A stretch of 64,000 bases of DNA from Williamsia sp. 1138 (GTDB lineage Bacteria; Actinomycetota; Actinomycetes; Mycobacteriales; Mycobacteriaceae). The stretch is taken from NCBI RefSeq assembly GCF_002095435.2, contig NZ_MJEJ02000053.1:1-64000 (forward strand), given 5' to 3'. The position numbers were made by a program, and so were the translations under genes. The number at the start of each line of letters is the position of its first letter. The first letter of the stretch is position 1. Under the pieces are notes generated by a model that was given only the letters and a program-made list of their open reading frames with translations, did not search any database and was not told where the DNA came from. Shown here one piece after another: positions 13,247 to 56,666 of the stretch.

Positions 13247-13289
13247 TTGACCTACGTCGGAACGACTGATTACACTGTCAGTGTACTGA
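13247..13289 (+). promoter_or_regulatory. Promoter plus TCAGT-NN-ACTGA operator, copy 1
   Basis: Plus strand TTGACC (13247-13252), 18-bp spacer, TACACT (13271-13276), then one base and the palindrome TCAGTGTACTGA (13278-13289), which covers the likely transcription start. The nearest plus-strand gene is the MFS exporter at 13560, leaving a leader of about 270 bases. The divergent SDR could share the operator. Confidence 0.75.
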
Positions 13290-13559
13290 ACATACTAACT
13301 CGACGCGCGGTTACACGGGCGCGGCATTCTCGAAGAGTGATCGGCGGCGAACACCGCTGCAAGTGCCCTACAAACCCGAAGGCGCAGCTGTTCGTCATCA
13401 TCGCGCGACGGACTTCGGGAACTTTCCATGGCAATAGTCACTAACCGTCGCGCTGTTCTAGCGCACCACGGTTCACGTCTCTTGCCTCGCAAAATAACAC
13501 ATACGCGGGAGACGCCCCAGGGCTCGGTGCACTAGTTGCACGAGGCAGCTTTACCGACC

Positions 13560-14888
13560 ATGAGAAGGACAACAACTTTGAAGTTTAGACCTCGTAGCGA
13601 CGGGACGATGCTGCCCATAGCTCATGACGGGGAGATAGTTTCACCCCTGTCCCGCAAAAATTATCGTCCTAAATCAAGGCCCACGCTGACGGAACACGAA
13701 CCCACGTTGGCGATGATTATCGCCCTGGGATTGATGGCTACCCTTGGTCCTGTTGCTATAGACATGTACCTTCCAGCGCTACCTGACATCGGGTCGGAAA
13801 TGGGGGCATCTGCATCCACGATGCAATTGACGCTGGCCGGCACTCTCTTCGGACTCGGAATAGGACAGTTGATTGTTGGCCCGCTATCGGACTCGCTTGG
13901 ACGAAAACGGCCGTTGATAGTCGGCATCTGTGTCAATATCGCCGCATCAACCCTGGCTGTGTTCGCGCCCACCATTGGAGTACTTGGAATCGCTCGAGTT
14001 TTTCAGGGATTGGGTGCGGCGGCCGCGGCGGTCATAAGCCTCGCCATGGTACGTGACCTATATAGCGGGCGAACTGTTGCAGTGATGTTAAGCCGTCTTC
14101 TTCTCGTCATTGGGGCCGCACCATTGCTCGCCCCTAGTATTGGAGGAGCAATTCTCACAGTGGTCGACTGGCGCGGGATCTTCGTCGTTCTGGGTCTAAT
14201 CGGAATCTTAACCTTATTGGTCGCACTGTTCTATCTACCAGAGTCGTTGCCAGTGGGAAGCCGCCAACCACTGGCGTTCCGCTCTATATTGAGTACCTAT
14301 CGGGTTTTACTCGGTGATAGACAGTTCTCCGCCTTCGCACTGGCCGCAGGCTGCGGCATCGGCGCGATGTTTTCTTATGTCTCCGGCTCGTCATTTGCAT
14401 ATCAAGAAGAGTACGGACTCGGCGAGCAGAGTTTCGCGGTTGTTTTTAGTATCGGTGCACTAGCCCTCATTCTGGCGTCCCAAATCAATATTCACTTACT
14501 GCGGCGGTGGACGCCGCGGACTATTGCGACCGCTGCGGTGACTGCTGGCTCATTAATCGGAACGGCCTTGATCACTTTATCTGCCACAGATAACAGCAGT
14601 TTGATCATCTTTGGAATTGTTGTCTGGTTCTTGATCGGTACTGTTGGCTTTCTTATCCCGAATGTGCAAGCACTGGCGCTCTCGCTACACCCGGACTCGG
14701 CAGGAAGCGCATCAGCCTTGCTAGGAGCACTGCAGTTTGGATTGGGTGCGGCAATCGCCCCGGTAGTCGGCGCGATGGGCGGTACCGGTCTTGCTATCGC
14801 GATCGCTATGACCGGCTGTATTGCACTGGCCATGGGTCTGATTCTCACGCTACCAAACGATAGGAAGAATCGTAGGACGGTAAGCTAA
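13560..14888 (+). CDS. MFS exporter, Bcr/CflA type
   Basis: About 442 residues with twelve predicted membrane helices and the family's first-helix motif (LGPVAIDMYLPALPDIGSEM) and motif A loop (GPLSDSLGRKRPL). Bcr/CflA proteins are proton-driven drug or small-molecule exporters. Residues before about 45 are polar and unusually long, so the start is uncertain: ATG 13560, TTG 13578 (with GAAGGAC ahead) or an upstream TTG are options. Codon use is visibly richer in A and T (ATA, TTA, TTT) than in neighbouring genes, suggesting a different origin. The operator-bearing promoter at 13247-13289 points to it. It could export a toxic substrate or pathway intermediate. Confidence 0.85.
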   Translation: MRRTTTLKFRPRSDGTMLPIAHDGEIVSPLSRKNYRPKSRPTLTEHEPTLAMIIALGLMATLGPVAIDMYLPALPDIGSEMGASASTMQLTLAGTLFGLGIGQLIVGPLSDSLGRKRPLIVGICVNIAASTLAVFAPTIGVLGIARVFQGLGAAAAAVISLAMVRDLYSGRTVAVMLSRLLLVIGAAPLLAPSIGGAILTVVDWRGIFVVLGLIGILTLLVALFYLPESLPVGSRQPLAFRSILSTYRVLLGDRQFSAFALAAGCGIGAMFSYVSGSSFAYQEEYGLGEQSFAVVFSIGALALILASQINIHLLRRWTPRTIATAAVTAGSLIGTALITLSATDNSSLIIFGIVVWFLIGTVGFLIPNVQALALSLHPDSAGSASALLGALQFGLGAAIAPVVGAMGGTGLAIAIAMTGCIALAMGLILTLPNDRKNRRTVS

Positions 14889-15052
14889 CTCGAAACGGTG
14901 ATCGGCGTCTTCTGTACGTCCGGCTATCTCATGCGCAGCGCACAGAGCACTTCGACAGTGAAGATAGTCCGATGCCGCCAACGGTCAGATGCCGGGAAGG
15001 CCGGCGGGCTCGGCTCCACGGTGTGCAGCGAGGTCCTTAACATAACAAAGTT

Positions 15053-15259
15053 TTAGTTTGCCGAAGTTTTCACAGTTAGATGCATTTTTTCGCTCGAATC
15101 CATCGCAAGGAGACGCCAGTCAGACTCAGTAAAGTAGAAGGTCGTCCCGCGATAGAAGTCACGTCGTAGAACTCGCAGCAGTGAAACTTCGTGGCCATAT
15201 CGCAAGATCTCTCTCCTTAAGTGGTGGGGCACTACGGCTTCATCAGTTCGATCGCTCAT
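15053..15259 (-). CDS. Small hypothetical protein downstream of fprB
   Basis: A 68-residue basic protein (MSDRTDEAVVPHHLRREILR ...) starting six bases after the fprB stop on the same strand; no good ribosome site of its own, so coupled translation is likely. No signal peptide, membrane helix or Cys. I do not recognise a family. The tight spacing is the main argument that it is real; it would be part of the P450 electron-transfer operon. Confidence 0.45.
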   Translation of the reverse strand: MSDRTDEAVVPHHLRREILRYGHEVSLLRVLRRDFYRGTTFYFTESDWRLLAMDSSEKMHLTVKTSAN

Positions 15260-15265: not shown

Positions 15266-16984
15266 TCAGGCTTGGGCCGCGGCGATCAATGCCTCGGTTG
15301 TGACTAACTTGACACGGTGACGACCGGTACTCTTGCCGGCGTTCCTTTCGGCGAGATCGATTTTCTTCCACCCGGCGCCGTCGATTCGTTCAGCCCCCCG
15401 CTCTGCAATCAGATCGAGGACGTGCTCACAGGATTTCGCCGGCTGGGGTAGTTCGCCCTTGATGAAGTCGGTAATAACAGCCCTTGCTGACGCCTGACCA
15501 CATATGCGGTTGATGCCGATGCCACCGGTAGCGCCGCGCTTTATCCAGCCGGTGACGTACACCCCTTCCGTCCGCTCACCTCGGAGCGGATCGATGACTC
15601 GTCCTTCTTCGTTGGGCACTACGCCTCGTGCTCCATCGAATGGTAAACCGTTCAAAGGATGTCCGGTGTATCCGACTGAGCGCATGACTGCGCCGGTGAA
15701 TATATCGAACATCTGACCGGTCGGCCTGACGCTGATCAGCCCCGAGCTGGGCCTCGGGGGACGGTCAAAATTGTCGGTAGAGTCGTCTGGAGCTTCGAAA
15801 AATTCGTTGCGCGCACATCGAATCCGCTCGACGCCAGCCTCCGAACCCACGATGGCTGTGGGTGAGACCATGTAGCGTAATATAAGACGCTTATTTCCAC
15901 CGGTCAGAGGCCGGTTGGCGAACTCTTCTGCGATTCGCACCTTGGTCGCGATTGTGGATTCAAGGGAGCCGTCTTCTCGAGCCTTTTGGTTGGCTACGTC
16001 GAGCACGAGTTCCTCGGGTTCGATAACGATATCGACCCCCGTCAAATCGCCCATCGCTAAAAATTCTGCGTTGGTATAGGCCGCCTGCGCGATCCCCCGC
16101 CGGCCCAGCAGAACGACTTCCTTAATGTTGCTCGATCGGAGCTTGTCCAACGCGTGATCGGCGATGTCGGTCTTGGCCAGATTATCGGGATCGTCAAGCA
16201 GAATCCGTGCGACGTCCAAAGCCACGTTGCCGTTGCCGACGATCACCGCCCGCTCTGTGCTCAGATCGAATACATGGTCAGCGAAATCCGGATGTCCGTT
16301 GTACCAGGCCACGAAATCGCTAGCCGCGAACGAACCAGGAAGATCTTCACCTTCGATTCCCATATGCTTGGCGGTGACCGCGCCATGAGCGTATATCACT
16401 GCACCGTAGTGGTTAAGCAATTCACTATGGGTGATGTGTTTGCCGACCTCTACGTTCAGGAAGTATTGAAACGTTCGTTTCGCGGCGGTCGCGGTGAAGG
16501 CCTTTTCTACGCCTTTCGTTGATTGGTGGTCGGGGGCAACGCCAGCACGTACGAGGCCATAGGGGGTTGGGAGTCGGTCGAACATGTCGACGTGGATTGC
16601 CGAGTGCTTGACGAGCTCTTCAGCCGCGTAGAACCCGGCAGGACCGGCCCCAACGATCGCCACATGAAGTTCGACGCCGGGGGGCACATGTGCCTTCTGG
16701 TGCGGAGAAAACACTGAGCCGGAGATGGTGTGGTCGGTGTAATAGTCGGCGTTGATCTGCTGATAACGCTCCTGGGGCTCTGAGAGCGCGTCATCTGGGA
16801 AAATCGCCTCGACGGGGCACGCGTCTATGCAAGCACCACAATCGATACACGTCTCAGGATTAATGTACAACATTTCAGCATTTATGAACTCGGGCTCATT
16901 CGGCGTTGGGTGAATGCAATTGACCGGGCAGACGCTGATGCAACTGGCATCGTTGCAACACGGCTGCGTTATCACATGCGGCAC
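15266..16984 (-). CDS. fprB: Ferredoxin-NADP reductase with N-terminal 7Fe ferredoxin domain (FprB type)
   Basis: A 572-residue fusion. Residues 1-60 are a two-cluster ferredoxin with CCNDASCISVCPVNC and the 4Fe-4S motif CIDCGACIDACP. From about residue 105 follows an adrenodoxin-reductase-like flavoprotein (VAIVGAGPAGFYAAEELV, NADP site IVGNGNVALDVARIL, GWIKRGATGGIG). This architecture and the start MPHVITQPCCNDASC match mycobacterial FprB, which passes electrons from NADPH to ferredoxins and P450s. The GTG at 16984 has AGGAG six bases upstream; an open frame continues further but lacks family features. It lies downstream of the ferredoxin reductase at 17130, in one operon, supplying P450s of the island. 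Confidence 0.93.
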   Translation of the reverse strand: MPHVITQPCCNDASCISVCPVNCIHPTPNEPEFINAEMLYINPETCIDCGACIDACPVEAIFPDDALSEPQERYQQINADYYTDHTISGSVFSPHQKAHVPPGVELHVAIVGAGPAGFYAAEELVKHSAIHVDMFDRLPTPYGLVRAGVAPDHQSTKGVEKAFTATAAKRTFQYFLNVEVGKHITHSELLNHYGAVIYAHGAVTAKHMGIEGEDLPGSFAASDFVAWYNGHPDFADHVFDLSTERAVIVGNGNVALDVARILLDDPDNLAKTDIADHALDKLRSSNIKEVVLLGRRGIAQAAYTNAEFLAMGDLTGVDIVIEPEELVLDVANQKAREDGSLESTIATKVRIAEEFANRPLTGGNKRLILRYMVSPTAIVGSEAGVERIRCARNEFFEAPDDSTDNFDRPPRPSSGLISVRPTGQMFDIFTGAVMRSVGYTGHPLNGLPFDGARGVVPNEEGRVIDPLRGERTEGVYVTGWIKRGATGGIGINRICGQASARAVITDFIKGELPQPAKSCEHVLDLIAERGAERIDGAGWKKIDLAERNAGKSTGRHRVKLVTTEALIAAAQA

Positions 16985-17129
16985 AGAATCTCCTAATCTC
17001 GCAACTTGGCCCGGAACACATACCGCGAGTTGCAGCTGACGAAACGTTTGACTAACTAAGACGTGCAATGAAGCTGATGGCCGGTGCGGCGGTATTGCCC
17101 CGGCGCGAAGTTTCCGAGCTCCGAAGAGC

Positions 17130-18332
17130 TCATAGACCCGATGTAATTGGCCGTAAGGCCATGTCAGACAGCAATTCCTGGCGTAACCGAATGGTCTCTC
17201 GAGGTAAGTTCCAGGTGAGAATTGCTTCCATCCGGCCTCTATGCCTGTAGACGGCTGCGAAACGTCCCTGTGAAGGATCGCCGCGGGTAATCGACACGGT
17301 GGCGGCATTGTGCGGTATCCCGTAAACCTGGATTTTCACGTCGAATTGATCACTCCAAAAGAACGGAATTGGTGCGAATGGTTCTTTGCGCGCACTCACC
17401 AGTGCGCGTGCGGCGACAGTTGCTTGTTCGAGCGCATTGGTCTGATGTTCCAAGCGCATTCGGCGTCCGTAGACCCTATGGTGCCAGCTGGCAACGTCGC
17501 CAGCCGCGACGATTCCCGGTGCTGCGACACAGAACTCGTCGCAGTCCACTCCGTTAGTGAGCGAAAGGCCGCTGTCGGCCAGCCAGTCGATGCTGGGGGT
17601 TGATCCGATGGCCATCAGCACGAGGTCTGCGTCTATCACCGATCCGTCGTTCATCGCGACGCCCGTCACCTGACCGTGGTGGCTGCGAAGTGCTGCCACC
17701 TCACTGCCGAGAGCCATCTCTACACCATGGGACTGATGTAACGTCGCAACGTGGTCCCCGATCTCTTCGCCGAGTTGGCGCATCATTGGAGTCGTCAGGG
17801 GGTCGACGATGGTGACGTGGAGCTGCGATTTCCTTGCCACTGCGGCGACCTCGCAACCCAAGAACCCCGCCCCTATCACAACCAATCGACGTCCCGGTGC
17901 AAAGTCCTTTCGGAGCGCGCGAGCGTCACTGGTGGTCCTGAGGATGTGAACCCCGTCGATGCCGGCAGTGTCTGGGAAGCGGCGCGGATTCACGCCGGTC
18001 GCGATTATCAAGCCGTCGTATTCGATGCTGGAGCCGTCGGCCATCTCAACCCGCTGGGCTTCACGATCGAGGTGTACTGCAGCGCTTCCGAGGCGCCATT
18101 GGGCATTCAAGGCCATTAGCTTGTCGGGTGAGCGAAACTGCGCCCGGTCCTCGGTCCAGGTTCCAGCAAGGAGCTGCTTCGATAGCGGTGGCCGCATATA
18201 CGGGGCGGCGTTCTCGGCTCCAACCATCACAATGTCGCCGTTGAAGTTGTCTTTACGGAGCGTCTCGGCGGCAGTGAGGCCGGCCGCGGACGCACCGACG
18301 ATCACAATCCGGTTCGGGTGTCTCTTGTCCAT
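17130..18332 (-). CDS. FAD-dependent ferredoxin reductase, putidaredoxin/rhodocoxin reductase type
   Basis: A 400-residue class with two Rossmann folds: FAD site IVIVGASAAGLTAAETLR near the N-terminus, the PYMRPPLSKQLL motif, NAD site LVVIGAGFLGCEVAAVARK around residue 150, and the C-terminal FAD motif GIVAAGDVASWH. It takes electrons from NADH to a ferredoxin serving a class I P450. The ATG at 18332 is chosen with GGA about 7 bases upstream; a TTG three codons earlier is less likely. Its promoter carries the shared palindrome at 18403. The ferredoxin partner is probably the 3Fe-4S ferredoxin at 28934. Confidence 0.92.
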   Translation of the reverse strand: MDKRHPNRIVIVGASAAGLTAAETLRKDNFNGDIVMVGAENAAPYMRPPLSKQLLAGTWTEDRAQFRSPDKLMALNAQWRLGSAAVHLDREAQRVEMADGSSIEYDGLIIATGVNPRRFPDTAGIDGVHILRTTSDARALRKDFAPGRRLVVIGAGFLGCEVAAVARKSQLHVTIVDPLTTPMMRQLGEEIGDHVATLHQSHGVEMALGSEVAALRSHHGQVTGVAMNDGSVIDADLVLMAIGSTPSIDWLADSGLSLTNGVDCDEFCVAAPGIVAAGDVASWHHRVYGRRMRLEHQTNALEQATVAARALVSARKEPFAPIPFFWSDQFDVKIQVYGIPHNAATVSITRGDPSQGRFAAVYRHRGRMEAILTWNLPRETIRLRQELLSDMALRPITSGL

Positions 18333-18402
18333 CGGATCCAAGCTTTAGTAGTAGAGGTCTGGGCGCTGGCCCTCGAGGCGAATCGGCGACCATCAATATT
18401 GA

Positions 18403-18446
18403 TCAGTACACTGAGGAAAGGTAGTGTTCGTCACACTTGGAGTCAA
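18403..18446 (-). promoter_or_regulatory. Promoter plus TCAGT-NN-ACTGA operator, copy 2
   Basis: On the minus strand: TTGACT (18446-18441), 17-bp spacer, TACCTT (18423-18418), three bases, then TCAGTGTACTGA (18414-18403; reads TCAGTACACTGA on the plus strand). It drives the ferredoxin-reductase/fprB operon. The divergent cupin gene starts at 18533 and may also be under its influence. Confidence 0.78.
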
Positions 18447-18532: not shown

Positions 18533-19132
18533 GTGACTATGGATCAGAACTATGGCCGTGGCTGGCAGGCTTATTCCTTCGACAACGCGACAATGCACGA
18601 GGTCAAGGCGCATGGCGCGAAGACTGCAATCGGGGCCGCGGCTGCGTTCAATCGTGGGCCCGGGCGGTTGCAGATGAGCTTGCTCGAAATACCCGCAGGG
18701 GTGGCAGGGGATTCGATCGGGCTTCACATCCATCGCGATTTCCCGACCGGCCGAGACGTCGAGGAGATTTACATCCTCGTTGACGGCGAAGGTGTCATGA
18801 CCTTCAGTAATGGTGACGAAGTCTCGTTGTGCCCTGGGGATTTTGTCACAACGTATCCTGGGACCGGACACGCATTCCAGGTCGCCGGAGATCGCACCGC
18901 GCGCATCATAGTCATCGTTCCCGAGGGGTTCCGGTCGGACGCGCCGTCGGCGCCCTCCGACCAGTTTCCGGATGAATTTGAACCCACGATTCGTATTGTC
19001 AGCTGTCATCCAACGTCCATGACGCCGGTAGAAGCGGAGTGTCGGAAATGTCACGATGCGTGGACGGTTGACGTGGGCAGCCCCGGAGGGGAGGGTCTGT
19101 CTCACTGGGCCGCGCAGCACGTGTGCAGATGA
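18533..19132 (+). CDS. Cupin-domain protein with C-terminal Cys-rich tail
   Basis: A 199-residue single cupin. Motif 1 is present as HIHRDFPTGRDVEEIYILVDG (His, His, Glu ligands) and motif 2 as PGDFVTTYPGTGHAF (His). The last 35 residues hold C-x2-C (CRKCHD), a His and a final Cys, resembling a small zinc-binding tail. AAAGGAGA stands six bases before the GTG start. Small cupins act as dioxygenases, isomerases or ligand sensors; the function here is unknown. It forms a pair with the luciferase-like monooxygenase 90 bases downstream and is divergent from the ferredoxin reductase. Confidence 0.8.
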   Translation: MTMDQNYGRGWQAYSFDNATMHEVKAHGAKTAIGAAAAFNRGPGRLQMSLLEIPAGVAGDSIGLHIHRDFPTGRDVEEIYILVDGEGVMTFSNGDEVSLCPGDFVTTYPGTGHAFQVAGDRTARIIVIVPEGFRSDAPSAPSDQFPDEFEPTIRIVSCHPTSMTPVEAECRKCHDAWTVDVGSPGGEGLSHWAAQHVCR

Positions 19133-19221: not shown

Positions 19222-20304
19222 ATGCAGATCGGGATCTTCAGCATCGGTGACGTGACAACAGACCCCACCAGTGGGGTCACTCCGACCGAACATCAACGCA
19301 TCAAGGCAACCGTCGAGATCGCAGTTAAGGCAGAAGAGGTCGGCCTCGATGTAGTAGCACTCGGCCAGCACCACGGTCCGCCTTTTGCGGCGACGTCACC
19401 GGCGACGACACTCGCGTTCATTGCGGCTAGGACGAAACGAATTATCTTGTCAACCGCAACGACACTGATCACCACGACCGATCCGGTCAAGATTGCTGAA
19501 GACTACGCTCAACTTCAGCATCTCTCGGATGGCAGGCTGGACCTCATGCTGGGTCGCGGGAACGCAGTACCGGTCTACTCCTGGTTCGGTCAAGATATTC
19601 GACACGGCATAGAACTCGCTTCCGAGAACTATGCGCTCCTTCATCAACTGTGGCGAAATGAAGGCGTTGACTGGGCCGGTCGTTTTCGAGCCCCGCTCGC
19701 TGGCTTCACCGCTACCCCTCGTCCACTCGACGGTGTACCCCCGTTCGTGTGGCACGGGTCAGTGCGCAGCCCCGAGGTGGCCGAAACGGCCGCCCGCTAC
19801 GGTGACGGCTATTTTGCGCACCATGTCTTCTGGCCGATCGCACATACTGCGCGGATGGTGGACCTCTACCGCCGCCGTTTCGAACACCACGGCCACGGCA
19901 CCTACAGTCAAGGGATCGTCGGACTCGGTGGCCAGGTGTACATGCATCGCAGCAGTCAGCGCGCGGTCAGCGAGTTTCGTCCATACTTCGACAAGGCGCC
20001 GCTGTACGGCAACGGGCGTTCCTTGGAAGAGTTCACGCAGAAGACTCCACTCACAGTAGGCTCCCCTCAGCAGGTCATCGATCGAACGCTTGGCTTCAGA
20101 GACTACGCCGGTGACTATCAACGTCAATTGTTCTTGATCGACCACGCGGGGTTGCCGCTCAAGAGGGTTCTAGCGCAACTCGATCTTCTCGGCGAGGAAG
20201 TGCTACCTGTGCTGAGGGCCGAATTTGCCTCACGAAAGTCTGCACATGTTCCGGATGCTCCTACGCATCAGTCTCTTCGTGCGGTACTGGCTCACCGCCG
20301 CTGA
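19222..20304 (+). CDS. Luciferase-like flavin monooxygenase (LLM class)
   Basis: A 360-residue TIM-barrel protein of the bacterial-luciferase superfamily: MQIGIFSIGDV at strand 1, VGLDVVALGQHH, the LSDGRLDLMLGRGN turn typical of the family, and PPFVWHGSVRSPEVAETAARYGDG. These enzymes use FMNH2 (or F420) and O2 for Baeyer-Villiger, dealkylation or hydroxylation reactions; the conserved LGQHH and long C-terminus favour the FMN type. GAGGAG lies 7 bases before the ATG. No flavin reductase is encoded next to it. Confidence 0.85.
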   Translation: MQIGIFSIGDVTTDPTSGVTPTEHQRIKATVEIAVKAEEVGLDVVALGQHHGPPFAATSPATTLAFIAARTKRIILSTATTLITTTDPVKIAEDYAQLQHLSDGRLDLMLGRGNAVPVYSWFGQDIRHGIELASENYALLHQLWRNEGVDWAGRFRAPLAGFTATPRPLDGVPPFVWHGSVRSPEVAETAARYGDGYFAHHVFWPIAHTARMVDLYRRRFEHHGHGTYSQGIVGLGGQVYMHRSSQRAVSEFRPYFDKAPLYGNGRSLEEFTQKTPLTVGSPQQVIDRTLGFRDYAGDYQRQLFLIDHAGLPLKRVLAQLDLLGEEVLPVLRAEFASRKSAHVPDAPTHQSLRAVLAHRR

Positions 20305-20500: not shown

Positions 20501-20542
20501 TTGACAGAGTGGCATCAGACACTAAACTTGTCAGTACACTGA
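20501..20542 (+). promoter_or_regulatory. Promoter plus TCAGT-NN-ACTGA operator, copy 3
   Basis: TTGACA (20501-20506), 16-bp spacer, TAAACT (20523-20528), two bases, then TCAGTACACTGA (20531-20542), overlapping the expected start of transcription. The P450 start codon is at 20614. The rest of the 309-base gap (20305-20613) holds no gene. Confidence 0.85.
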
Positions 20543-20613
20543 GCAATACTCGACCGAGGATCGCTCAGGATGTACCAAGTTCGTCTCCCATACAACTCCT
20601 CCGGAGGAACACC

Positions 20614-25121: not shown

Positions 25122-25174
25122 TTGACACACCCCCTGGAAGGGGCTACATTTTCGTCAACTCATCAGCACACTGA
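25122..25174 (+). promoter_or_regulatory. Promoter plus TCAGC-AC-ACTGA operator, copy 4
   Basis: TTGACA (25122-25127), 17-bp spacer, TACATT (25145-25150), then 12 bases to TCAGCACACTGA (25163-25174; one change, C for T at position 5). The transporter ATPase starts at 25440, so a leader of about 280 bases would follow; no gene is evident in that leader. Confidence 0.75.
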
Positions 25175-25439
25175 GTAATTTGTTCGATGCAACCGACCAC
25201 GCAGGACTCCGACCCGTGGGTGTGTGAGAGTCCGAGAAGCGGTCCGTCTCCATACTCTTCCTGCTGCTCATGGGCTCGTCGGTATTGAGATCAGCAGCCT
25301 GGCACCGATGAAGGAGTAATCAACAAAATGTGTGCAACCCTCGGATGCGCAGTTTTCAGGCACCGTGCAGAGACCTTGGAGGGGCACTGATGCGTTACCC
25401 GAAACGTGGGTCGGACCGAATCCGGAGAGTGGCATCATA

Positions 25440-28032: not shown

Positions 28033-28201
28033 GTGCGGCTCGATCGAAGTCTGGGCTTCCGTTGCGAGCGAACAGGGCTGGCACGCCGGCAACCGGTGAA
28101 ATACTCACATGACCACAACGAGAGGAGAGTTCGAAGGTGACTCGACATATGTCTGACCTGCACTGTCGTAAGGGTGTGACGGCTCGCGGGAGGTGGCTGA
28201 G

Positions 28202-28764: not shown

Positions 28765-28807
28765 TTGACCGCCCAGGTGTGACCCAGTACACTACTCAGT
28801 GTACTGA
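28765..28807 (+). promoter_or_regulatory. Promoter plus TCAGT-NN-ACTGA operator, copy 5
   Basis: TTGACC (28765-28770), 17-bp spacer, TACACT (28788-28793), two bases, then TCAGTGTACTGA (28796-28807). Directly abutting on the left is CCAGTACACTAC (28784-28795), which matches the same motif at nine of twelve positions, so this may be a double site covering the -10 box. It drives the ferredoxin at 28934. Confidence 0.85.
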
Positions 28808-28933
28808 ACAAATACACGGCGGAGCCCGACCACCCTGAAGCCGATGGTCAGCCCGGTTCGTCAGCGCAGCGAATGGGCGCGGTGTTCCGGTTGCGGCCGG
28901 CGCTGGTTCTGTTGCCCTGTCTAGGAGGTTTGA

Positions 28934-29131
28934 ATGCATATCGAAATCGATGAAGACGCCTGCATCGGTGCCGGCCAGTGTGTTCTGGCGGCACCCGACG
29001 TCTTCGATCAACGTGAGGACGACGGCATCGTTGTCCTCGTTTCGCCTGACGCACCCGCATCCGAGCGTGGCAATGTGGAAGAGGCAGCCAATCGTTGCCC
29101 TGCGAGCGTGATTCGCGTCGATGGCGACTGA
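28934..29131 (+). CDS. 3Fe-4S ferredoxin for P450
   Basis: A 65-residue ferredoxin with C10, C16 and C55 (CIGAGQC and RCP). The residue at position 13 is Ala instead of Cys, as in 3Fe-4S ferredoxins of actinobacterial P450 systems. A perfect AGGAGG lies seven bases upstream of the ATG. It immediately precedes a P450 and very likely accepts electrons from the putidaredoxin-reductase-like protein at 17130 or FprB at 15266, which carry the same operator. Confidence 0.93.
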   Translation: MHIEIDEDACIGAGQCVLAAPDVFDQREDDGIVVLVSPDAPASERGNVEEAANRCPASVIRVDGD

Positions 29132-32429: not shown

Positions 32430-32449
32430 ATACTCAGTATACTGAGTAT
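32430..32449 (+). promoter_or_regulatory. Perfect 20-bp palindrome, operator copy 6
   Basis: ATACTCAGTATACTGAGTAT is a perfect palindrome with the TCAGT-NN-ACTGA core at 32434-32445. TATACT elements lie inside it (32429-32434 and 32438-32443) and could be the -10 box, but no convincing -35 is seen. It lies 93 bases upstream of the pyruvate carboxylase start and is the most symmetrical copy of the motif, so it suggests the full operator is 20 bp. Confidence 0.85.
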
Positions 32450-35949: not shown

Positions 35950-35957
35950 CGGTGATC

Positions 35958-42822: not shown

Positions 42823-42979
42823 GACGCTCCTGGCTTCTTCTCTGTGTATCCGGCGGCGCCAACGTTGATCATGACGCGCCCAAGTCCCCAGCAGCACAAG
42901 GAGCATTTCGTATTGCTCTTGCTGCAAGAGTCCGCACTGCCCACCTGCGATGAAGGGTAACCTACGCCGCCCGATTTCG

Positions 42980-42992
42980 TCAGTGTACGTGA
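42980..42992. promoter_or_regulatory. Degenerate copy of the island operator
   Basis: TCAGTGTACGTGA matches the shared motif except for one inserted G in the right half. It lies between the divergent MarR and hydrolase-like genes, so it could give weak autoregulation. No good promoter boxes are visible next to it. Confidence 0.35.
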
Positions 42993-43084
42993 GATCGTTC
43001 CTCCTGGTGGTGGCAGGCGAGGCCCACCGCGGGTGAATCCACTGATGAGTCGACGGGAAATCGCTTGCTACTGAAAGGAAAAGA

Positions 43085-44129: not shown

Positions 44130-44180
44130 TTGACGCGCGAAGTGACCGACATTACACTCAAATTATAATCAGTACACTGA
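44130..44180 (+). promoter_or_regulatory. Promoter plus TCAGT-NN-ACTGA operator, copy 7
   Basis: TTGACG (44130-44135), 17-bp spacer, TACACT (44153-44158), then TCAGTACACTGA (44169-44180), 10 bases after the -10 box. A TATAAT at 44164-44169 abutting the palindrome is an alternative -10. It drives the alcohol dehydrogenase at 44216. Confidence 0.8.
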
Positions 44181-44215
44181 CGAAATGAATATTTGAACCG
44201 AGGAGATTCCGGTCG

Positions 44216-45328: not shown

Positions 45329-45364
45329 CCAATCGCGTCCCAATTTTTGAAAAGAGGAACTTCG

Positions 45365-48049: not shown

Positions 48050-48892
48050 ATGGAACGACTGTCCGGAAGGGTGGCGTTGATCACCGGTGCTGCGCGAGGC
48101 CAAGGGCGTGCGCACGCAGTCAGGTTGGCGAGTGAGGGCGCTGACATCATCGCGTTCGACTCTTGCGCCACATTCGCCAGCACGAATTACGATCCGTCGA
48201 CTCTCGCGGATCTGGAAGAGACCGCGAGACTCGTAAAGGCCCAGGGGCGAAGGATACTGTGGCGACAAATCGATGCCCGCAACTTCGCCGACGTCGAAAA
48301 CTTGGTCTCCGCCGGTACGGAAGAATTCGGTCGTCTGGACATAGTGGTCGTCAATCACGCCATCTGTCATTACTCCAACACCTGGGAAGTCACGGAGGAG
48401 AACTGGGATGAAGTGATCTCGGTCAACCTCACCAGCGTATGGAAGGTCCTGAAAGCCGTTGCCCCGTACATGATCGAGCAACGAACAGGTGGTTCGATCA
48501 TCGTCACGAGTTCAGTGGCAGGTGTGAAAGGCCAGCCGTTCCTAGCGCCGTACGTCGCATCCAAACACGGCGTGGTGGGGTTGGCGAAGACCCTGGCGAA
48601 TGAACTGGGGCGGCATCGAATCCGCGTCAACGTCGTCCTCCCGGGTGGCGTCCAGACGCCGATGGCCGGTTACGACTGGAACGGCGAGAAGGGTGAGTCG
48701 AACCCGTTCGCCGGCGAGCTGAACAAACCTGAGGTGGCAGCGACACTCGGCCCCATCTTCATGAATGCACTCGGCGAGAAGTGGATGACACCAGAGGACG
48801 TCGCGAATACGGTTGCCTTCTTGGCCAGCGATGAGGCGCACTTCATCACGGGTGCTGAGTTTCCGGTCGATGCCGGGGCGACTGCTCGCTAG
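48050..48892 (+). CDS. Mycofactocin-coupled-type short-chain dehydrogenase
   Basis: A 280-residue SDR with TGAARGQGRAHA, NHAI, Ser in VTSSVAG and YVASK. After strand 2 it carries the insert DSCATFASTNYDPSTLADLE, then ETARLVKAQGRR, the hallmark of SDRs that hold NAD tightly and pass electrons to mycofactocin (as in carveol dehydrogenase). AGGAGG upstream of the ATG. A second one is at 54495. No mycofactocin biosynthesis genes are in the window. Confidence 0.87.
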   Translation: MERLSGRVALITGAARGQGRAHAVRLASEGADIIAFDSCATFASTNYDPSTLADLEETARLVKAQGRRILWRQIDARNFADVENLVSAGTEEFGRLDIVVVNHAICHYSNTWEVTEENWDEVISVNLTSVWKVLKAVAPYMIEQRTGGSIIVTSSVAGVKGQPFLAPYVASKHGVVGLAKTLANELGRHRIRVNVVLPGGVQTPMAGYDWNGEKGESNPFAGELNKPEVAATLGPIFMNALGEKWMTPEDVANTVAFLASDEAHFITGAEFPVDAGATAR

Positions 48893-48948: not shown

Positions 48949-49833
48949 ATGGTGGAACGCCAGTTCGAAGGTCGTGTTGCACTCGTAACCGGGGCAGGGA
49001 GCGGCATCGGTTATGAGGAGGCAACAACTCTGGCACGCCTGGGAGCCAAAGTTGTTCTCAACGACGTCCGGACGACGCACGGTGCACGGCCCGAGGAGGC
49101 AACCGCGGAAGAGGTCGCCGCCGAGTTGGTCGCGGAAGGGCTGACCGCAGTGGCCGACACCGGCAGCATCGGCGATGAGGAGTACGCAACCGGGCTCGTA
49201 GACCGCACCATCGAACGCTTTGGAACGATCGATGTCCTGATCAACAACGCCGGGATCATCGCGCGCGGGACCTCCCACGATACCGAGACGAAGTTCCTCA
49301 TGGATACGTTCAGCGTCAACTTCCTCGGTTCCTTCTGGACGCAGCGCGCCGCGCTGCGTCAGATGAGGAAGCAGGGCTACGGCCGGATCCTCAATACATC
49401 CTCCGGGGCAGCTGCTTTCGGTGCCCCAGGCTTCTTTCCCTACATTGTGAGCAAGACGGCAATCCTCGGACTGAGTCGATCGGCTGCCCTCGACAACGCA
49501 GACCTGGACATCAAGATCAACTCGATCTGCCCCGTTGCTCGGACGATGATGGATCCTGACCATTTCGATTCCAGATCGCATGTCGACAAGGACGTCGTGC
49601 ATCCCAAGTGGGTGACACCGGTTGCGATGTACCTGGTGGGCGACGACTGCAAGTTCAGTGGCGAGACCCTCAGCGCCGGCGTCGGGGTGTGGGCACGGGT
49701 ATTCACCGGCAAGACACACGGTCTCACGCCGACCGGGCTGACCTCGGACGATGTGGCCGAGGCCATCGACCGCATCCTGGATGTCTCTGAGTTCAGAGTC
49801 CTCCGATCAGCTCAAGCGCAGTACGATGACTAG
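48949..49833 (+). CDS. Short-chain dehydrogenase/reductase
   Basis: A 294-residue SDR: TGAGSGIGYEEA, NNAGII, Ser in NTSSGAAAF, YIVSK and an unusual ICPVAR in place of the PG motif. The C-terminal part (KWVTPVAMYLVGDD, then VWARVFTGKTHGL) resembles SDRs fused or related to peroxisomal-type multifunctional 3-hydroxyacyl-CoA dehydrogenases, so an acyl-CoA substrate is possible. AGAAGGAGA upstream. Lies 56 bases after the mycofactocin-type SDR in the same unit. Confidence 0.86.
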   Translation: MVERQFEGRVALVTGAGSGIGYEEATTLARLGAKVVLNDVRTTHGARPEEATAEEVAAELVAEGLTAVADTGSIGDEEYATGLVDRTIERFGTIDVLINNAGIIARGTSHDTETKFLMDTFSVNFLGSFWTQRAALRQMRKQGYGRILNTSSGAAAFGAPGFFPYIVSKTAILGLSRSAALDNADLDIKINSICPVARTMMDPDHFDSRSHVDKDVVHPKWVTPVAMYLVGDDCKFSGETLSAGVGVWARVFTGKTHGLTPTGLTSDDVAEAIDRILDVSEFRVLRSAQAQYDD

Positions 49834-49947: not shown

Positions 49948-50529
49948 ATGTCCGTTCACCAGACCGAACAAGTCTCGCAGGATCTCACGATCGAGCAACG
50001 CATCACCATGTTGGAGGTCGAACGCGAGTGTCGCGAGATACTCGCACGCTACGGGTTTTATGCCGACCACATGCTCCACGACGAATGGGTGAATCTGTTC
50101 ACGACTGATGCCGTGATGGACTTTACTTTCTACGACGATTCCAACTATTTCGACGACGACATGAAACCGAGTTCGGCCGATCCGACCACCATCGAATTCC
50201 CGCTGAAACGTTCGGTGTTCACGGGCAGTGACGAACTACAGGTGTGCATCAGGGCGCCTCGTCACGAGCGACTGATGGGTCGGGCGCAGCATCGGATGGA
50301 TGCCCAACCGGCGATCTTCCGTTTGCTCGACGACGACTCTGCCATCATCGTGAGCGATTCGGTTGTGCTGGCGAGGCAGCGAGCGAACTTTTCGCCCACG
50401 CTTCAGTATCAGCACTATTGCCTCAATCGCTGGACCTTCCGAAAGGTCGACGGTGTGTGGAAGATCGCTGAGAACATCAGGCGGACGATGGGTAGCGATG
50501 ACGCCGCGGAATTGATCTCCGGGCTCTGA
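49948..50529 (+). CDS. SnoaL-like protein (first of a pair)
   Basis: A 193-residue SnoaL_4-type alpha+beta-barrel protein (ECREILARYGFYADHMLHDE, then WVNLFTTDAVMDFTFYDD; C-terminal LNRWTFRKVDGVWKIAEN). This fold hosts dehydratases, hydratases and epoxide hydrolases, and resembles the small subunit of ring-hydroxylating oxygenases. AAGGG precedes the ATG. The next gene encodes another family member, so they may form a heteromeric enzyme. Function unknown. Confidence 0.72.
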   Translation: MSVHQTEQVSQDLTIEQRITMLEVERECREILARYGFYADHMLHDEWVNLFTTDAVMDFTFYDDSNYFDDDMKPSSADPTTIEFPLKRSVFTGSDELQVCIRAPRHERLMGRAQHRMDAQPAIFRLLDDDSAIIVSDSVVLARQRANFSPTLQYQHYCLNRWTFRKVDGVWKIAENIRRTMGSDDAAELISGL

Positions 50530-50636
50530 CGTCACGAGGATCAGGCGCGTCCACCGGAAGGTCGGGGACGTGCCTGATCTGCTTCCTGGGCAACACAATC
50601 CTGATAGGACAGCGGGCGACGGCGAGCGGAGTGGTC

Positions 50637-51131
50637 ATGGATGTTGACGAAGTGTGTTCGAGGCACGAGATTCTGGATCTGATCAGTGAATACACGCTGA
50701 GTAATGACAGGGCGGAATGGGAACGGATGGATCGTATCTGGGCCGATGACGCCGTGATGTTGGTCCCTGGGGTCGGCGTCGGTAGATACGACGGGCGGGA
50801 GACGATCATGTCCCGCTATCGCAGCCTCGCTGCCCGGGCGAAGCAGGCAGAGTCGGCGAGAGACGAGGGGAAGACGGCAATGACCTTCTCCCGCCACCAT
50901 TTGACCAGCACCCGGCTGTCATTTCTGGACAGCTCGCACGCGGTGGGCGTCAGTTACTACTTTGTGATCACCGACGTCGGATACGACCACAGCGGTTGCT
51001 ACGAAGACAGGTTCACGCGGACCGCCGGGCGATGGCTGATCTCGGAACGAAAGACCTTGGTCGAGCATGTCGCGAGTGAGTCGTTTTATGGCTTCTTGAG
51101 GGCAGCGGCAGCGCAGAACAATAAGCAATAG
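50637..51131 (+). CDS. SnoaL-like protein (second of a pair)
   Basis: A 164-residue SnoaL-like protein (VCSRHEILDLISEYTLSNDR, then MDRIWADDAVMLVPGVGVG; GYDHSGCYEDRFTRTAGRWL). Same fold as the preceding 193-residue protein but clearly diverged. ATG 50637 has GGAG five bases ahead; GTG 50631 is an alternative. Last gene before the gentisate operon, which has its own promoter. Confidence 0.72.
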   Translation: MDVDEVCSRHEILDLISEYTLSNDRAEWERMDRIWADDAVMLVPGVGVGRYDGRETIMSRYRSLAARAKQAESARDEGKTAMTFSRHHLTSTRLSFLDSSHAVGVSYYFVITDVGYDHSGCYEDRFTRTAGRWLISERKTLVEHVASESFYGFLRAAAAQNNKQ

Positions 51132-51210: not shown

Positions 51211-51258
51211 TTGACGGAGAGTCTGCCCACACCTATGATTACTCAGTGTACTGAGTAA
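51211..51258 (+). promoter_or_regulatory. Promoter plus 20-bp palindromic operator, copy 8
   Basis: TTGACG (51211-51216), 17-bp spacer, TATGAT (51234-51239), then TTACTCAGTGTACTGAGTAA (51239-51258; core 51243-51254), overlapping the -10 end and the transcription start. The hydroxylase starts at 51277, right after it, leaving little room for a leader. Best promoter/operator pair of the set. Confidence 0.9.
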
Positions 51259-52461: not shown

Positions 52462-52495
52462 TTGTGAACCGCTACGTGGATAAGGAAGTAGATTG

Positions 52496-53530
52496 ATGGC
52501 GATTGCGAACGATGACGATGCCTACAGCGGGCTGACCAAACTTGACGCTGCACCACTGTGGAGGTATCTCGGCGACCTATTTAGACCGGAGCCGAAATCT
52601 GTTGCAATTCCGACAATTTGGCACTATCAGGCGTTGCGCGAATACGCGATGTACTTCGCCGAGCACCTGCCGATCGAGGACGCACAGCGCAGGGTGTTGA
52701 TGCTGGTGAATCCAGGCCTGCAAGAACCGCCCGCGACCGTCAACACCCTGTACGCGGGTATTCAGATCCTGTTGCCGGGGGAACAAGCGCCGGCGCACCG
52801 GCACACGTCCAATGCTTTCCGGTTCGTCATCGAAGGGTCGGGGGTGTACACCACTGTGGACGGCGAGCGCGTCCATATGCGTCCCGGCGACCTGTTGATG
52901 ACGGCCGGTATGCAGTGGCACGATCACTTCCACCCCGCGGACGAGCCGATGATGTGGCTCGATGGGCTCGACTACCCCCTGATCAACTCGCTGGAAGCGG
53001 GCTTCTACGAGAAGTTCCCCGACACCTATCAAAAGTCGACTGCGCCCGATGACATCTCGACTCGCCAGTTCATCCACGGGCGACTGAATCCCACCTGGAT
53101 CCCTCGAACGTCGCCGAACACTCCCGTAGGGAACTATCCATGGAGCGAGACCGAGCGTGCGCTGTCGGCGATCGGCGACGATGTCGACGGCTGCGAACAC
53201 GACGGCATCGCCCTTGAGTACACGAATCCGCTCAACGGTGGTCCCGTACTTCCGACGATCGGCTGCCGGGTCCAGCGGTTGAAGCCAGGATTCAGTGGAC
53301 GCCCTCGCCGCCAGACCCCCAGTGTGATCTGCCACGTGGTACGGGGGCATGGGACGACGCAGGTCGGCGAAACGCTACTTCAATGGCATCCGAACGATGT
53401 GTTCGTCATACCGGGTTGGTCCACCTATCAGCACAAGAACGCCGCAACCGATGACGATGCGGTGCTGTTCACGTACTCGAATGAACCGGTCATGAAGTCT
53501 CTCAATCTGTATCGCGAAGAGTCGCTCTGA
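52496..53530 (+). CDS. Gentisate 1,2-dioxygenase-family bicupin
   Basis: About 344 residues with two cupin domains. The N-terminal domain has the iron ligands in PAHRHTSNAFRFVIEG and QWHDHFHP, with LYAGIQILLPGE and MMWLDGLDYPL, all typical of gentisate dioxygenases. The reaction is gentisate plus O2 to maleylpyruvate. The same family includes salicylate and 1-hydroxy-2-naphthoate dioxygenases, but the preceding hydroxylase and following hydrolase fit gentisate. AAGGAAG lies upstream; ATG 52496 follows a TTG at 52493. Confidence 0.9.
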   Translation: MAIANDDDAYSGLTKLDAAPLWRYLGDLFRPEPKSVAIPTIWHYQALREYAMYFAEHLPIEDAQRRVLMLVNPGLQEPPATVNTLYAGIQILLPGEQAPAHRHTSNAFRFVIEGSGVYTTVDGERVHMRPGDLLMTAGMQWHDHFHPADEPMMWLDGLDYPLINSLEAGFYEKFPDTYQKSTAPDDISTRQFIHGRLNPTWIPRTSPNTPVGNYPWSETERALSAIGDDVDGCEHDGIALEYTNPLNGGPVLPTIGCRVQRLKPGFSGRPRRQTPSVICHVVRGHGTTQVGETLLQWHPNDVFVIPGWSTYQHKNAATDDDAVLFTYSNEPVMKSLNLYREESL

Positions 53531-53596: not shown

Positions 53597-54448
53597 GTGC
53601 GTATAGCTAGTTTCAACGACGGTCGAGTCGGCTTCGTCAAAGACGATCACGTTTATGAGATACCAGGATTCGGAGGCACCAGGCCGGGTCAGTTGAGTGC
53701 GATGCGCCGACTGATAGAAGGCTGGGACACCGGAGGCTGGAGCGACGGCCTGCCACTCCTGGACCCCGTGCCCCTCGCTGACGTCACGCTCATGCCCCCG
53801 GTTCCCGACCCGACGAAGATCTTCGCGGCACCGGTGAACTATCGCGACCATCAGGTGGAGATGAACGAAAGCGTCCAGGTCTCCGGGTTGGGGCTGTTTC
53901 TGAAGGCTCCGTCGTCACTGGTCGGCCACGGGGACATCGTCCGTCTTCCCTATCAGGACAGACGGTTTGACCACGAGGGTGAAGTCGCTGTTGTGATCGG
54001 TCGGCAGGCGAGAAATGTCAGTAAGGCGGACGCGCTCGGCTACGTTTTCGGGTACACGGCGTTGCTGGACATGACGATGCGGGGTAAGGAGGATCGGTCG
54101 ACGCGCAAGTCCTTCGAGACGTTCACCCCGATGGGTCCGTGGATCGTGACCCTCGACCGAGACGATGCCAATGATGTGGAGAACTTGGCTTTCACATGCC
54201 GCCTGAACGATGAGGTCCGGCAGGACGCGGTGACGTCTGATCTGATCTGGGGTATCGCAGATCTGGTGGCCTACGCGTCGACGATCACCACGCTCCACCC
54301 CGGCGATGTGATCACCTCCGGTACTCCCGCGGGAGTAGGTCCGGTCGCGACCGGGGACTCGATCGACGTCGAGATCCAGGGAATCGGAGGCTCTTTGACG
54401 GTGTCCGTATCGGATGTCGGAGCCGTTCTCTGCCCGACGAAAGCGTAG
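53597..54448 (+). CDS. Maleylpyruvate/fumarylpyruvate hydrolase (FAH family)
   Basis: A 283-residue FAH-type protein: KIFAAPVNYRDHQVEMNE, metal motif DHEGEVAVVIG (Glu-x-Glu), LLDMTMRG, and SGTPAGVGPV. It hydrolyses the ring-fission product to pyruvate and fumarate or maleate. No maleylpyruvate isomerase is visible in the window, so the enzyme may act directly on maleylpyruvate. GTG 53597 has AAGGA five to six bases ahead. Last gene of the three-gene gentisate operon and closed by the hairpin at 54454. Confidence 0.88.
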   Translation: MRIASFNDGRVGFVKDDHVYEIPGFGGTRPGQLSAMRRLIEGWDTGGWSDGLPLLDPVPLADVTLMPPVPDPTKIFAAPVNYRDHQVEMNESVQVSGLGLFLKAPSSLVGHGDIVRLPYQDRRFDHEGEVAVVIGRQARNVSKADALGYVFGYTALLDMTMRGKEDRSTRKSFETFTPMGPWIVTLDRDDANDVENLAFTCRLNDEVRQDAVTSDLIWGIADLVAYASTITTLHPGDVITSGTPAGVGPVATGDSIDVEIQGIGGSLTVSVSDVGAVLCPTKA

Positions 54449-54494: not shown

Positions 54495-55337
54495 CTACTT
54501 TGCCATCTGGCCGGCATCGACCGGCAGTGCTACGCCTGTGACGTATCGGGACTCGTCGGATGCCAGCCACAGGACCGCGTTGGAGATGTCTCGCGACTCC
54601 ATCCAGGGGATCGGGATCGCGTTGACTGACTGAAATCTGATCGCAAGGCTTTCGCGAGTTCGCGCGCTATGGTGCACTTCTGGTGCGAAGACAGCGTATG
54701 TCGCCGCGTTCTGGATCATGTCTGTGTCGACACTGCCTGGATGCACTGAGTTGACCCGAATGAAGTCGGTGGCCAGCTCCAGCGCGAATGAACGCATCAG
54801 GCCGACCAGCCCGTGCTTCGCGGCGACGTAGTGGCCGATGTTCTCCACTCCCTTGAGCCCACCGGTCGAGTTGGTGAAGATGATCGATCCGCCGCGGCCG
54901 GTCTTCCGGAGATGCGGTATGGATACCGCAGCCGTGTTCCATGCGCCTGTCAGGTTGACGTCGAGCATGTCTTGCCAGGTCGTCGTCGGCAGGTTTTCGA
55001 GTCGACCAAGGCTATAGATACCCGCATTGGCTGCGACGATGTCGAGTCCCCCGAGTTCGGCTACACCTTGGGCCAGTGCGGCGTCGAGTGAGGCCGCACT
55101 GCGAACGTCGGCCTCCGCTGCGTAGATCCGCCGTCCAAGTGCCTCAACTTGTCTGACTGTCTCTTCTAGATCGGCCCGGGTCGCCATGGCGTAGGGCACC
55201 GAATCGATCTGGTCACATAGATCGATGGCAATGATGTCGGCGCCTTCCTCGGCCAGTCGGACGGCGTGGCTACGCCCTTGGCCGCGGGCCGCTCCGGTGA
55301 CGAAGGCAACTTTGTCTTGTACTCGCCCGTTCGTCAC
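54495..55337 (-). CDS. Mycofactocin-coupled-type short-chain dehydrogenase
   Basis: A 280-residue SDR with TGAARGQGRSHA, NAGIYS, Ser in FTNSTGG and YVAAK. It carries the insert IDLCDQIDSVPYAMATRADL followed by ETVRQVEALGRR, the diagnostic feature of mycofactocin-dependent SDRs with tightly bound NAD. GTG 55337 follows GGAGGGG by about seven bases; a longer open frame upstream is not needed. Second gene of the unit led by the ABC binding protein. Confidence 0.89.
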   Translation of the reverse strand: MTNGRVQDKVAFVTGAARGQGRSHAVRLAEEGADIIAIDLCDQIDSVPYAMATRADLEETVRQVEALGRRIYAAEADVRSAASLDAALAQGVAELGGLDIVAANAGIYSLGRLENLPTTTWQDMLDVNLTGAWNTAAVSIPHLRKTGRGGSIIFTNSTGGLKGVENIGHYVAAKHGLVGLMRSFALELATDFIRVNSVHPGSVDTDMIQNAATYAVFAPEVHHSARTRESLAIRFQSVNAIPIPWMESRDISNAVLWLASDESRYVTGVALPVDAGQMAK

Positions 55338-55375
55338 CGAAGCGCCCCTCCCATGTTTTGACTGGCCTGGTGTGG

Positions 55376-56548
55376 CTATTTGACGCCCCAAACAGTTTGG
55401 AAGTTGGTTGGTATCTCGTCTGAGCCCGGGAATTGTGCGCTGATGGCCGGGTCATCACCCCAATTGGTGGAGTCCACGAGCCGAACCGGGACCTCTACGG
55501 TCAGTGGCTGTTTAAGCGCAGCCCGCATTATTCCGTCGGCCGCGTAGTAGCCCAATGTCTGAGATGGAGGCCATACCACATCCGCCTTGAGGGGTGTGCC
55601 TTTGAGTGCGTCGACCAATCCGTCACCCTGCGCGCCGATGACTATGGCATTGGAGTTGACTGCCTGGACTCCGGCGGTGACGTAGGGCGTGGTGACGTCA
55701 CCTGAACTCAGCACGACGGCGTTGATGCTTGGATCTCGTTGCAGCGCTGTCCGTAGCTGGGGTTCTAGGCTCGTCGGGTAGGTGGCTGCGTTGAACTCCA
55801 GTTTGATCACTTTGCAGTCGTCCGGGCAGAGACGCTTGACTTCCTTGTCGAAGCCTTCCGCTGCATCGACGGTCAGCTTTGCCGCCGTTGTGTAGACGTC
55901 CACAGCTGTCAGTTTGCAATCTGTCTTAGCCAGGGCGTAGTCAGCCTGAAGGGTTCCTGTTTTGAAGATTCCCGGCGCGATGTTCGCGGCGATCCCTTTA
56001 GGTAACGTGGTACTGGGGTCGCCGGCGTTGGTGTTGATGACAGGAATACCGGCCGCGTTGGCGTCGTCGACTGCTGAACCTGCCAGAGCGGCCGCGTCGA
56101 TACCGTCGGCGACGATACCGGAGACTCTCTGTGCGATTGCCGACTGAATTGCTGCGGTGATCACGTCGGGTCGGCCTTTGCCGTCAAAGTAGATAGCCTC
56201 GGCTCCAACAGATTTGAGAGCAGCGGCAAAGGCGTCGTACTTCTCTTGGATGATCGAGTTCGTGATGATCGAGACGTAGGCGAACTTCTTCCCGGTCATC
56301 GAAGTGGTGTCGAAGGCAGGGGGTAGCTCGAACTCCGGCGGAGCCATCGCGCTTTCGTATGCTGACTGCGCTGCTTTCCCGCACTCTGACTGGGGCTCAC
56401 TCTGGGTGCCTCCGGTAGTGCCCGATGAACCGGATGAGCAAGCGGCGGTGACGGTTATCGCCGCCAGGCAAGCGAGAACGAGGGAGCGTCGGCGCAGCCC
56501 GCGCGATCGTTCGATCCCCGGAAGTCTCGGTTTGATGACTCTGATCAT
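55376..56548 (-). CDS. ABC importer substrate-binding lipoprotein, CUT2 type
   Basis: About 390 residues: basic N-terminus, hydrophobic stretch and lipobox ending at C37 (TVTAACSSG), then a Ser/Gly/Thr-rich linker and a periplasmic-binding-protein type I fold (FAYVSIITNSIIQEKYDAFA, GIVADGIDAAALAG). It captures a small molecule outside the membrane. No ATPase or permease is nearby; the cognate pair is probably at 25440-28003, because all three are of the ribose type and both units carry the same operator. ATG 56548 has AAGGG about 10 bases ahead; ATG 56575 is an alternative. Confidence 0.88.
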   Translation of the reverse strand: MIRVIKPRLPGIERSRGLRRRSLVLACLAAITVTAACSSGSSGTTGGTQSEPQSECGKAAQSAYESAMAPPEFELPPAFDTTSMTGKKFAYVSIITNSIIQEKYDAFAAALKSVGAEAIYFDGKGRPDVITAAIQSAIAQRVSGIVADGIDAAALAGSAVDDANAAGIPVINTNAGDPSTTLPKGIAANIAPGIFKTGTLQADYALAKTDCKLTAVDVYTTAAKLTVDAAEGFDKEVKRLCPDDCKVIKLEFNAATYPTSLEPQLRTALQRDPSINAVVLSSGDVTTPYVTAGVQAVNSNAIVIGAQGDGLVDALKGTPLKADVVWPPSQTLGYYAADGIMRAALKQPLTVEVPVRLVDSTNWGDDPAISAQFPGSDEIPTNFQTVWGVK

Positions 56549-56612
56549 TGAATTGCAACCCTTCTGGCCGTACATGTTTCGCGGGGCGGAGGACCGAAAC
56601 CCGCTACATTAC

Positions 56613-56666
56613 TCAGTGTACTGAGGACTGGCTGGGAGCGTAACGGAGATCACATATTGCTGTCAA
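56613..56666 (-). promoter_or_regulatory. Promoter plus TCAGT-NN-ACTGA operator, copy 9
   Basis: On the minus strand TTGACA (56666-56661), 18-bp spacer, TACGCT (56642-56637), then TCAGTACACTGA (56624-56613), 12 bases after the -10 box. It drives the binding-protein/SDR unit, which starts at 56548. Confidence 0.8.

Follow-up and report, generated by a model that had tools for sequence, protein, structure and literature searches.

The first 64,000 nucleotides of contig NZ_MJEJ02000053.1 of Williamsia sp. 1138 (assembly GCF_002095435.2; the window hereafter) raise the question of which regulator reads the palindrome TCAGT-NN-ACTGA, which recurs in front of nine predicted transcription units of a 43-kb cluster that is apparently devoted to the breakdown of ring compounds. 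Our answer, to which we give a probability of about 0.84, is that the nine palindromes are operators of a PcaV-like MarR repressor encoded in the cluster itself, at 42358-42822 on the minus strand. An earlier note on this DNA had read the locus as a coordinated catabolic regulon under one repressor. That reading is supported, though not proven, by the placement of the sites at promoters, the near-confinement of exact copies to the locus, the closeness of the local MarR protein to PcaV, and the match to the palindrome of the PcaV probe; evidence other than the motif count now links its single repressor to a specific MarR protein.

Exact copies of the motif are present at 13278, 18403, 20531, 28796, 32434, 44169, 51243 and 56613, and a ninth site at 25163 carries a single change (TCAGCACACTGA). 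All nine coordinates of the earlier note are thus correct, its statement that the window holds no further exact copy is borne out, and its rejection of chance stands: 0.02 exact copies are expected, and none of 100 shuffled windows contained at least 8. When aligned, the nine sites form a palindrome near the consensus TTACTCAGTRYACTGAGTAA with a length of about 20-22 bp, in agreement with the full site of about 20 bp proposed before. The sites at 32430 and 51239 are the most symmetrical, the centre is purine-pyrimidine in 9/9, and one position beyond the 20 bp is almost always A or T, while conservation drops to at most 0.5 bit at 6-8 bases outside the core. On a matrix made from the nine sites, their 20-bp sequences score 20.6-33.2 bits; the next score in the window (13.1 bits) belongs to a frame overlapping site 32434, and all other positions remain below 8 bits. 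In a leave-one-out analysis every site was still among the top nine scores of the window. A further single-change copy at 10043, absent from the earlier list, reaches 4.2 bits on the 20-bp matrix.

A genome-wide motif search, as the earlier note had proposed, counted 10 exact places over the full 6.08 Mb, 8 of them inside the window, against 1 place for the reversed pattern that served as control. On a softer 20-bp matrix the two places beyond the window reach 16.4 and 18.7 bits. Each is embedded in a long stop-to-stop frame (263 and 302 residues), so neither has the look of a promoter, bearing in mind that an open frame is not proof of a gene. Five single-change places outside the window were scored and gave 4-11 bits. 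Across 200 related genomes the exact motif occurs 0-6 times per genome. The background there is a little above control, since the motif totals 212 over 199 of the 200 rows, against 133 for the reversed pattern.

A predicted transcription unit lies downstream of all nine sites, as had been claimed. In the 60 bases preceding each site we searched for the best pair of -35 and -10 boxes with its spacer. The best choice has a TTGAC -35 with a spacer of 16-18 bp in seven of the nine units; at 44169 the scan favours an overlapping pair, but TTGACG-17-TACACT is present, which brings the TTGAC-type promoters to eight of nine, the number given previously, and leaves 32434 without a clear -35. The chosen -10 box ends 1-13 bases ahead of the 12-bp core except at 44169, where box and core share one base, in keeping with the description of a site that covers or closely follows the transcription start. 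Random window positions, most of which are coding, did not match the mean promoter score of the nine sites in any of 20000 draws. The units of sites 18403 and 56613 are on the minus strand, and at 18403 a possible second, divergent promoter (TTGATC-17-TAGTGT), read by eye outside the scanned stretch, spans the site. Location on or just after predicted promoters is the geometry expected of a repressor, as outlined in general terms in the accessible part of PMC5487221.

The protein encoded at 42358-42822 has a winged-helix MarR domain (PF01047, 52.6 bits, cut-off 24.6), and the closest solved sequence is PcaV of Streptomyces coelicolor (PDB 4fht, 4g9y), with an E-value of 1e-29 for 4fht and 5.7e-18 for the next. 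The recognition helices (LDRTTLAEIVTRL against LDRSTIAEVVSRL) are identical at 9/13 positions. According to the available excerpt of PMC6882365, the 32-base probe for PcaV consists of one palindrome, ATACTCAGTGCCCTGACTAT, flanked by six bases, and the PV probe has a dissociation constant for PcaV of about 5 nM. The palindrome in that excerpt and the window sites share the operator type TCAGT-NN-(A/C)CTGA. When scored with the matrix derived solely from the nine window sites, ATACTCAGTGCCCTGACTAT reaches 22 bits, a value attained or exceeded by just eight positions of the window, each of which is one of the nine sites, and by no letter shuffle of ATACTCAGTGCCCTGACTAT (0/20000). The same palindrome, letter for letter as excerpted, is the upstream site of a PcaV-like protein at another locus (L036), and when this protein was compared with the Williamsia sp. 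1138 genome its best match was the window MarR (1.9e-28; next match 3.1e-5).

We examined this pairing of protein and site at 38 homologue loci, comprising 9/9 from one search and those 29 of 54 non-self matches of another for which loci were given. The alanine-glutamate (AE) pair found at a recognition-helix position of the window MarR occurs in 16/38 homologues, and in all 16 a site of 21.1-27.5 bits lies at most 330 nt upstream. None of the 22 non-AE homologues reaches 17 bits upstream (five score 12-16.3 bits, three 3-5 and fourteen below 2), and scores of at least 15 bits outside the upstream stretch were seen at 2/38 loci. Two of the five intermediate loci, L018 and L019, which belong to one genus and look alike, have paired palindromes of a related sequence (TCCGTRYACGGA) upstream of PcaV-related MarR genes with AD instead of AE. 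The coincidence of the AD/AE difference with TCCGTRYACGGA suggests a possible specificity switch.

Several observations weigh against assigning the sites to this protein. Identity between the window MarR and the homologues found does not exceed 45%, and homology alone does not predict the motif, because 14/22 non-AE homologues have no site (below 2 bits). The link between AE and the site is confounded by kinship, since 15/16 AE loci are from one genus and are therefore not independent. No orthologous nine-site cluster was found elsewhere in the genomes searched. By plain identity ATACTCAGTGCCCTGACTAT, as excerpted, shares 13-16/20 bases with the nine sites, and an unrelated place at 61725 shares 14. 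The window has 32 approximate matches with up to 2 changes (20.8 expected), a weak excess, and the genome search with one mismatch returned 112 places against 47 for the control, which is too unspecific to be informative; since such copies are common, weaker distant members of the regulon may exist elsewhere in the genome. The matrix scan of the window found no strong operator ahead of the MarR gene, only the degenerate TTCGTCAGTGTACGTGAGAT (11.1 bits on the softer matrix, the best besides the nine sites and the overlapping frame; 7.0 bits and third on the stricter one), so strong autoregulation is not supported; such regulators are frequently autoregulatory according to the accessible part of PMC5487221. 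Finally, among the 13 PcaV pocket residues listed in the excerpt of PMC6882365, numbered here with an offset of 3 derived by hand, eight are identical in the alignment (L6, G11, R15, H21, W25, S35, A39, N114) and five differ (H9M, H12Y, Y38F, I110A, M113I), so that the inducer may differ from that of PcaV.

The lack of a strong site at the MarR gene would fit a regulator encoded elsewhere, for instance of the GntR or TetR family, which binds the palindrome while the local MarR controls something else. We regard this as improbable: the share of exact genome copies that falls in the locus (8/10) favours a local regulator, the PcaV probe matches the sites, and the next PcaV-like match in the genome is as weak as E 3.1e-5, in a comparison restricted to PcaV-like proteins. 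Among the sites lies one more regulator gene, at 31670-32344, for a LuxR-type response regulator that is paired with a GAF histidine kinase; we leave just as small a chance to the view that this response regulator binds the palindrome and coordinates the units. The kinase/regulator pair recurs beside the dione-hydrolase module in an Arthrobacter metagenome-assembled genome (MAG; 44% and 57% identity), but the 18.9 kb of that locus, which encode the 57% identical regulator, lack exact operator copies and score at most 8.3 bits, and the published PcaV probe matches the sites. The response regulator is therefore disfavoured as binder, its Arthrobacter module keeping the two-component pair without the site. 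That the palindrome is a repeated structural element or a product of chance would accord with the common one-mismatch and weakly enriched two-mismatch matches, but is very improbable given eight exact copies where 0.02 are expected, nine of nine sites at predicted promoters, and conservation that falls away outside the core.

Taking the MarR protein as the repressor, the locus can be compared with other MarR systems. CouR of Rhodococcus jostii RHA1 (PDB 5cyv) is likewise a MarR repressor with one box type at several promoters of a local catabolic regulon; the available text of PMC4737184 describes four promoters of an aromatic-catabolic regulon, a box cATTGA-N5-TCAATg over the -35 and a coenzyme A (CoA) thioester as ligand. 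Here one box type is found at predicted promoters in 9/9 cases within 43 kb. Box sequence and the proposed type of ligand differ from CouR, which is also a weaker match to the window MarR (5cyv, E 6.2e-7). Unlike PcaV, the window MarR lacks a strong operator at its own promoter and is proposed to act at nine dispersed promoters of a gentisate/alicyclic-type cluster rather than on a pca operon. In family searches of the main genes of the regulon, a pca gene set was not seen and gentisate-pathway genes were found instead. Judged from the sequences, the putative regulon is a PcaV-type MarR regulon of unusual breadth, and suggests a way in which a switch of this type, known from one operon, may spread over many promoters.

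The genes behind the operators are listed in the table below. Their products include two cytochromes P450, a small ferredoxin-like protein, two reductases and one or two luciferase-like oxidoreductases; there are also short-chain dehydrogenases/reductases (SDRs), SnoaL-like proteins, alcohol and aldehyde dehydrogenases, a major facilitator superfamily (MFS) transporter, and a sugar-type ATP-binding cassette (ABC) transporter with its binding protein. Two branches can be distinguished, one for gentisate and the other for carbon-carbon cleavage, the latter with a thiamine diphosphate (ThDP) enzyme. The 3-hydroxybenzoate-6-monooxygenase-like and gentisate 1,2-dioxygenase-like labels are best family matches, both below the NCBIfam cut-offs. 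The ThDP enzyme matches cyclohexane-1,2-dione hydrolase (PDB 2pgn) over nearly its full length with 504 bits, against 201 bits for the best other enzyme; here, in contrast to 2pgn, the gene comes from an actinobacterium and lies near genes for P450 and other oxygenases, and its function is a prediction. The distance from operator 1 to its MFS transporter, of the efflux type, is about 250 bases, with only short open frames between. A full-length pyruvate carboxylase stands first in a catabolic operon under operator 6.

Table. Putative operators, the genes of their predicted units and the proposed repressor (window positions).
Feature	Position	Strand	Genes or remarks	Predicted promoter
Putative operator 1	13274..13293	+	before Bcr/CflA-type MFS transporter, open reading frame 13536-14888	TTGACC-18-TACACT, plus strand
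SDR gene adjoining operator 1	12412-13221	-	divergent	
Putative operator 2	18399..18418	-	before ferredoxin reductase 17130-18341 (minus)	TTGACT-17-TACCTT, minus strand
Operator 2 unit, second Fe-S/flavin adenine dinucleotide (FAD) reductase	15266-17308	-		
Possibly also under operator 2			divergent; cupin 18533-19132; luciferase-like monooxygenase 19222-20304	
Putative operator 3	20527..20546	+	before cytochrome P450, start likely GTG 20614, end 21810	
Operator 3 unit, rest			Vgb-lyase-like protein 22051-23070; SDR 23250-24041	
Putative operator 4 (one change, TCAGCACACTGA)	25159..25178	+	before sugar-type ABC ATPase 25332-26954	
Operator 4 unit, rest			permease 26966-28003; SnoaL-like protein 28193-28720	
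Putative operator 5	28792..28811	+	before 65-residue ferredoxin-like protein 28934-29131 (label from reading the translation)	
Operator 5 unit, rest			P450 29095-30435 (open reading frame limits); histidine kinase 30474-31691; LuxR-type response regulator 31670-32344	
Putative operator 6	32430..32449	+	before pyruvate carboxylase 32542-35949	no clear -35
Operator 6 unit, middle			CitE-like lyase 35952-36839; enoyl-CoA hydratase 36867-37640; cyclohexane-1,2-dione-hydrolase-like ThDP enzyme 37753-39522	
Operator 6 unit, end			CoA-transferase 39527-40750; aldehyde dehydrogenase 40747-42273	
MarR-family regulator, PcaV-like, proposed repressor of the nine sites	42358-42822	-	Pfam and structure-database match	
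Degenerate copy TTCGTCAGTGTACGTGAGAT	42976..42995		upstream of MarR gene; possible weak autoregulatory site	
Putative operator 7	44165..44184	+	before alcohol dehydrogenase 44216-45328 and aldehyde dehydrogenase 45347-46807	
Operator 7 unit, rest			luciferase-like oxidoreductase 46860-47843; SDRs 48050-48892, 48949-49833; SnoaL-like 49948-50529, 50631-51131	
Putative operator 8	51239..51258	+	before 3-hydroxybenzoate-6-monooxygenase-like protein, ATG 51277, end 52461	
Operator 8 unit, rest			gentisate 1,2-dioxygenase-like 52493-53530; fumarylacetoacetate (FAA) hydrolase 53597-54448	
Putative operator 9	56609..56628	-	before sugar-type periplasmic binding protein 55376-56575 (minus)	TTGACA-18-TACGCT, minus strand
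Operator 9 unit, rest	54495-55391	-	SDR	

From these data we infer binding by the MarR protein, repression, an inducer and co-expression of the units. In the absence of inducer, a MarR dimer would sit on the roughly 20-bp TTACTCAGTRYACTGAGTAA, overlapping or just after the -10 box, and would block transcription of the catabolic enzymes, their redox partners, the ABC transporter and the MFS transporter. An aromatic carboxylate that is made or imported in the course of the pathway would enter the pocket and free the dimer, turning on all units together; the likeliest candidate is 3-hydroxybenzoate or a close derivative. The inducer is probably a hydroxybenzoate, because a PcaV sensor in E. coli is also responsive to 3-hydroxybenzoate (excerpt of PMC6882365), unit 8 encodes 3-hydroxybenzoate/gentisate-type enzymes, and eight of the 13 pocket residues are identical (five differ). 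MobR, a MarR-type regulator, binds 3-hydroxybenzoate according to the available text of PMC4737184, a likeness to the inducer proposed here that is by description only.

The sharing of one operator by all nine units makes it probable that they serve a single pathway, which is then delimited by regulation and not by guesswork; for an entire orphan catabolic cluster, the locus supplies a regulator and an operator whose pairing can be tested, with nine natural operator variants on offer. The most interesting part is the pathway itself. Tentatively, and with more doubt than confidence, we consider that the 43-kb island might be strain-specific and encode one complete, undescribed oxygen-dependent pathway under one PcaV-type repressor. 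Its substrate would combine two rings: an aromatic one, which would end in 3-hydroxybenzoate and gentisate, and a saturated one, which the enzyme of the cyclohexane-1,2-dione-hydrolase type would open; one ring-derived acid would signal to all nine units, the PcaV switch having spread from one operon to nine promoters. Literature searches for the palindrome text TCAGTGTACTGA, and for dione hydrolase together with Rhodococcus and gentisate, gave no match.

Within the genus as sampled, the island looks strain-specific, because the dione-hydrolase-like enzyme had no match in 8 congeners (E 1e-60, a strict limit at which distant relatives would be missed). Similarly strict limits gave none within the order (297 other genomes, E 1e-150) or the class (393 others, E 1e-170). 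Its matches in 1560 plasmid records are all below 60% identity (about 30% among the 15 matches listed), and a contig search returned one relative with 66%. For the window MarR, 812 plasmid records were all below 60% identity, and a contig scan needing exact short peptides gave no match. The Arthrobacter MAG carries the lyase, hydratase, two-component, ThDP (at L056:9971-11752), CoA-transferase and aldehyde-dehydrogenase genes together, with 44-73% identity; as the operator is absent from the 18.9 kb of that locus, the catabolic module exists without such control.

Further observations concern the rest of the window. The stretch 58826-62284, beside it, encodes an aconitase-like and a second class III CoA-transferase-like protein and contains no exact operator copy. 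An exact copy is also absent from a second catabolic-looking cluster at 1-7886, with genes for a P450, an FAD monooxygenase, an FAA hydrolase, a weak glyoxalase/dioxygenase match, a TetR regulator and a GAF-ANTAR protein. Just beyond the regulon, 11450-12043 encodes part of an insertion-sequence transposase, with an HTH_21 match and a weak match to rve.

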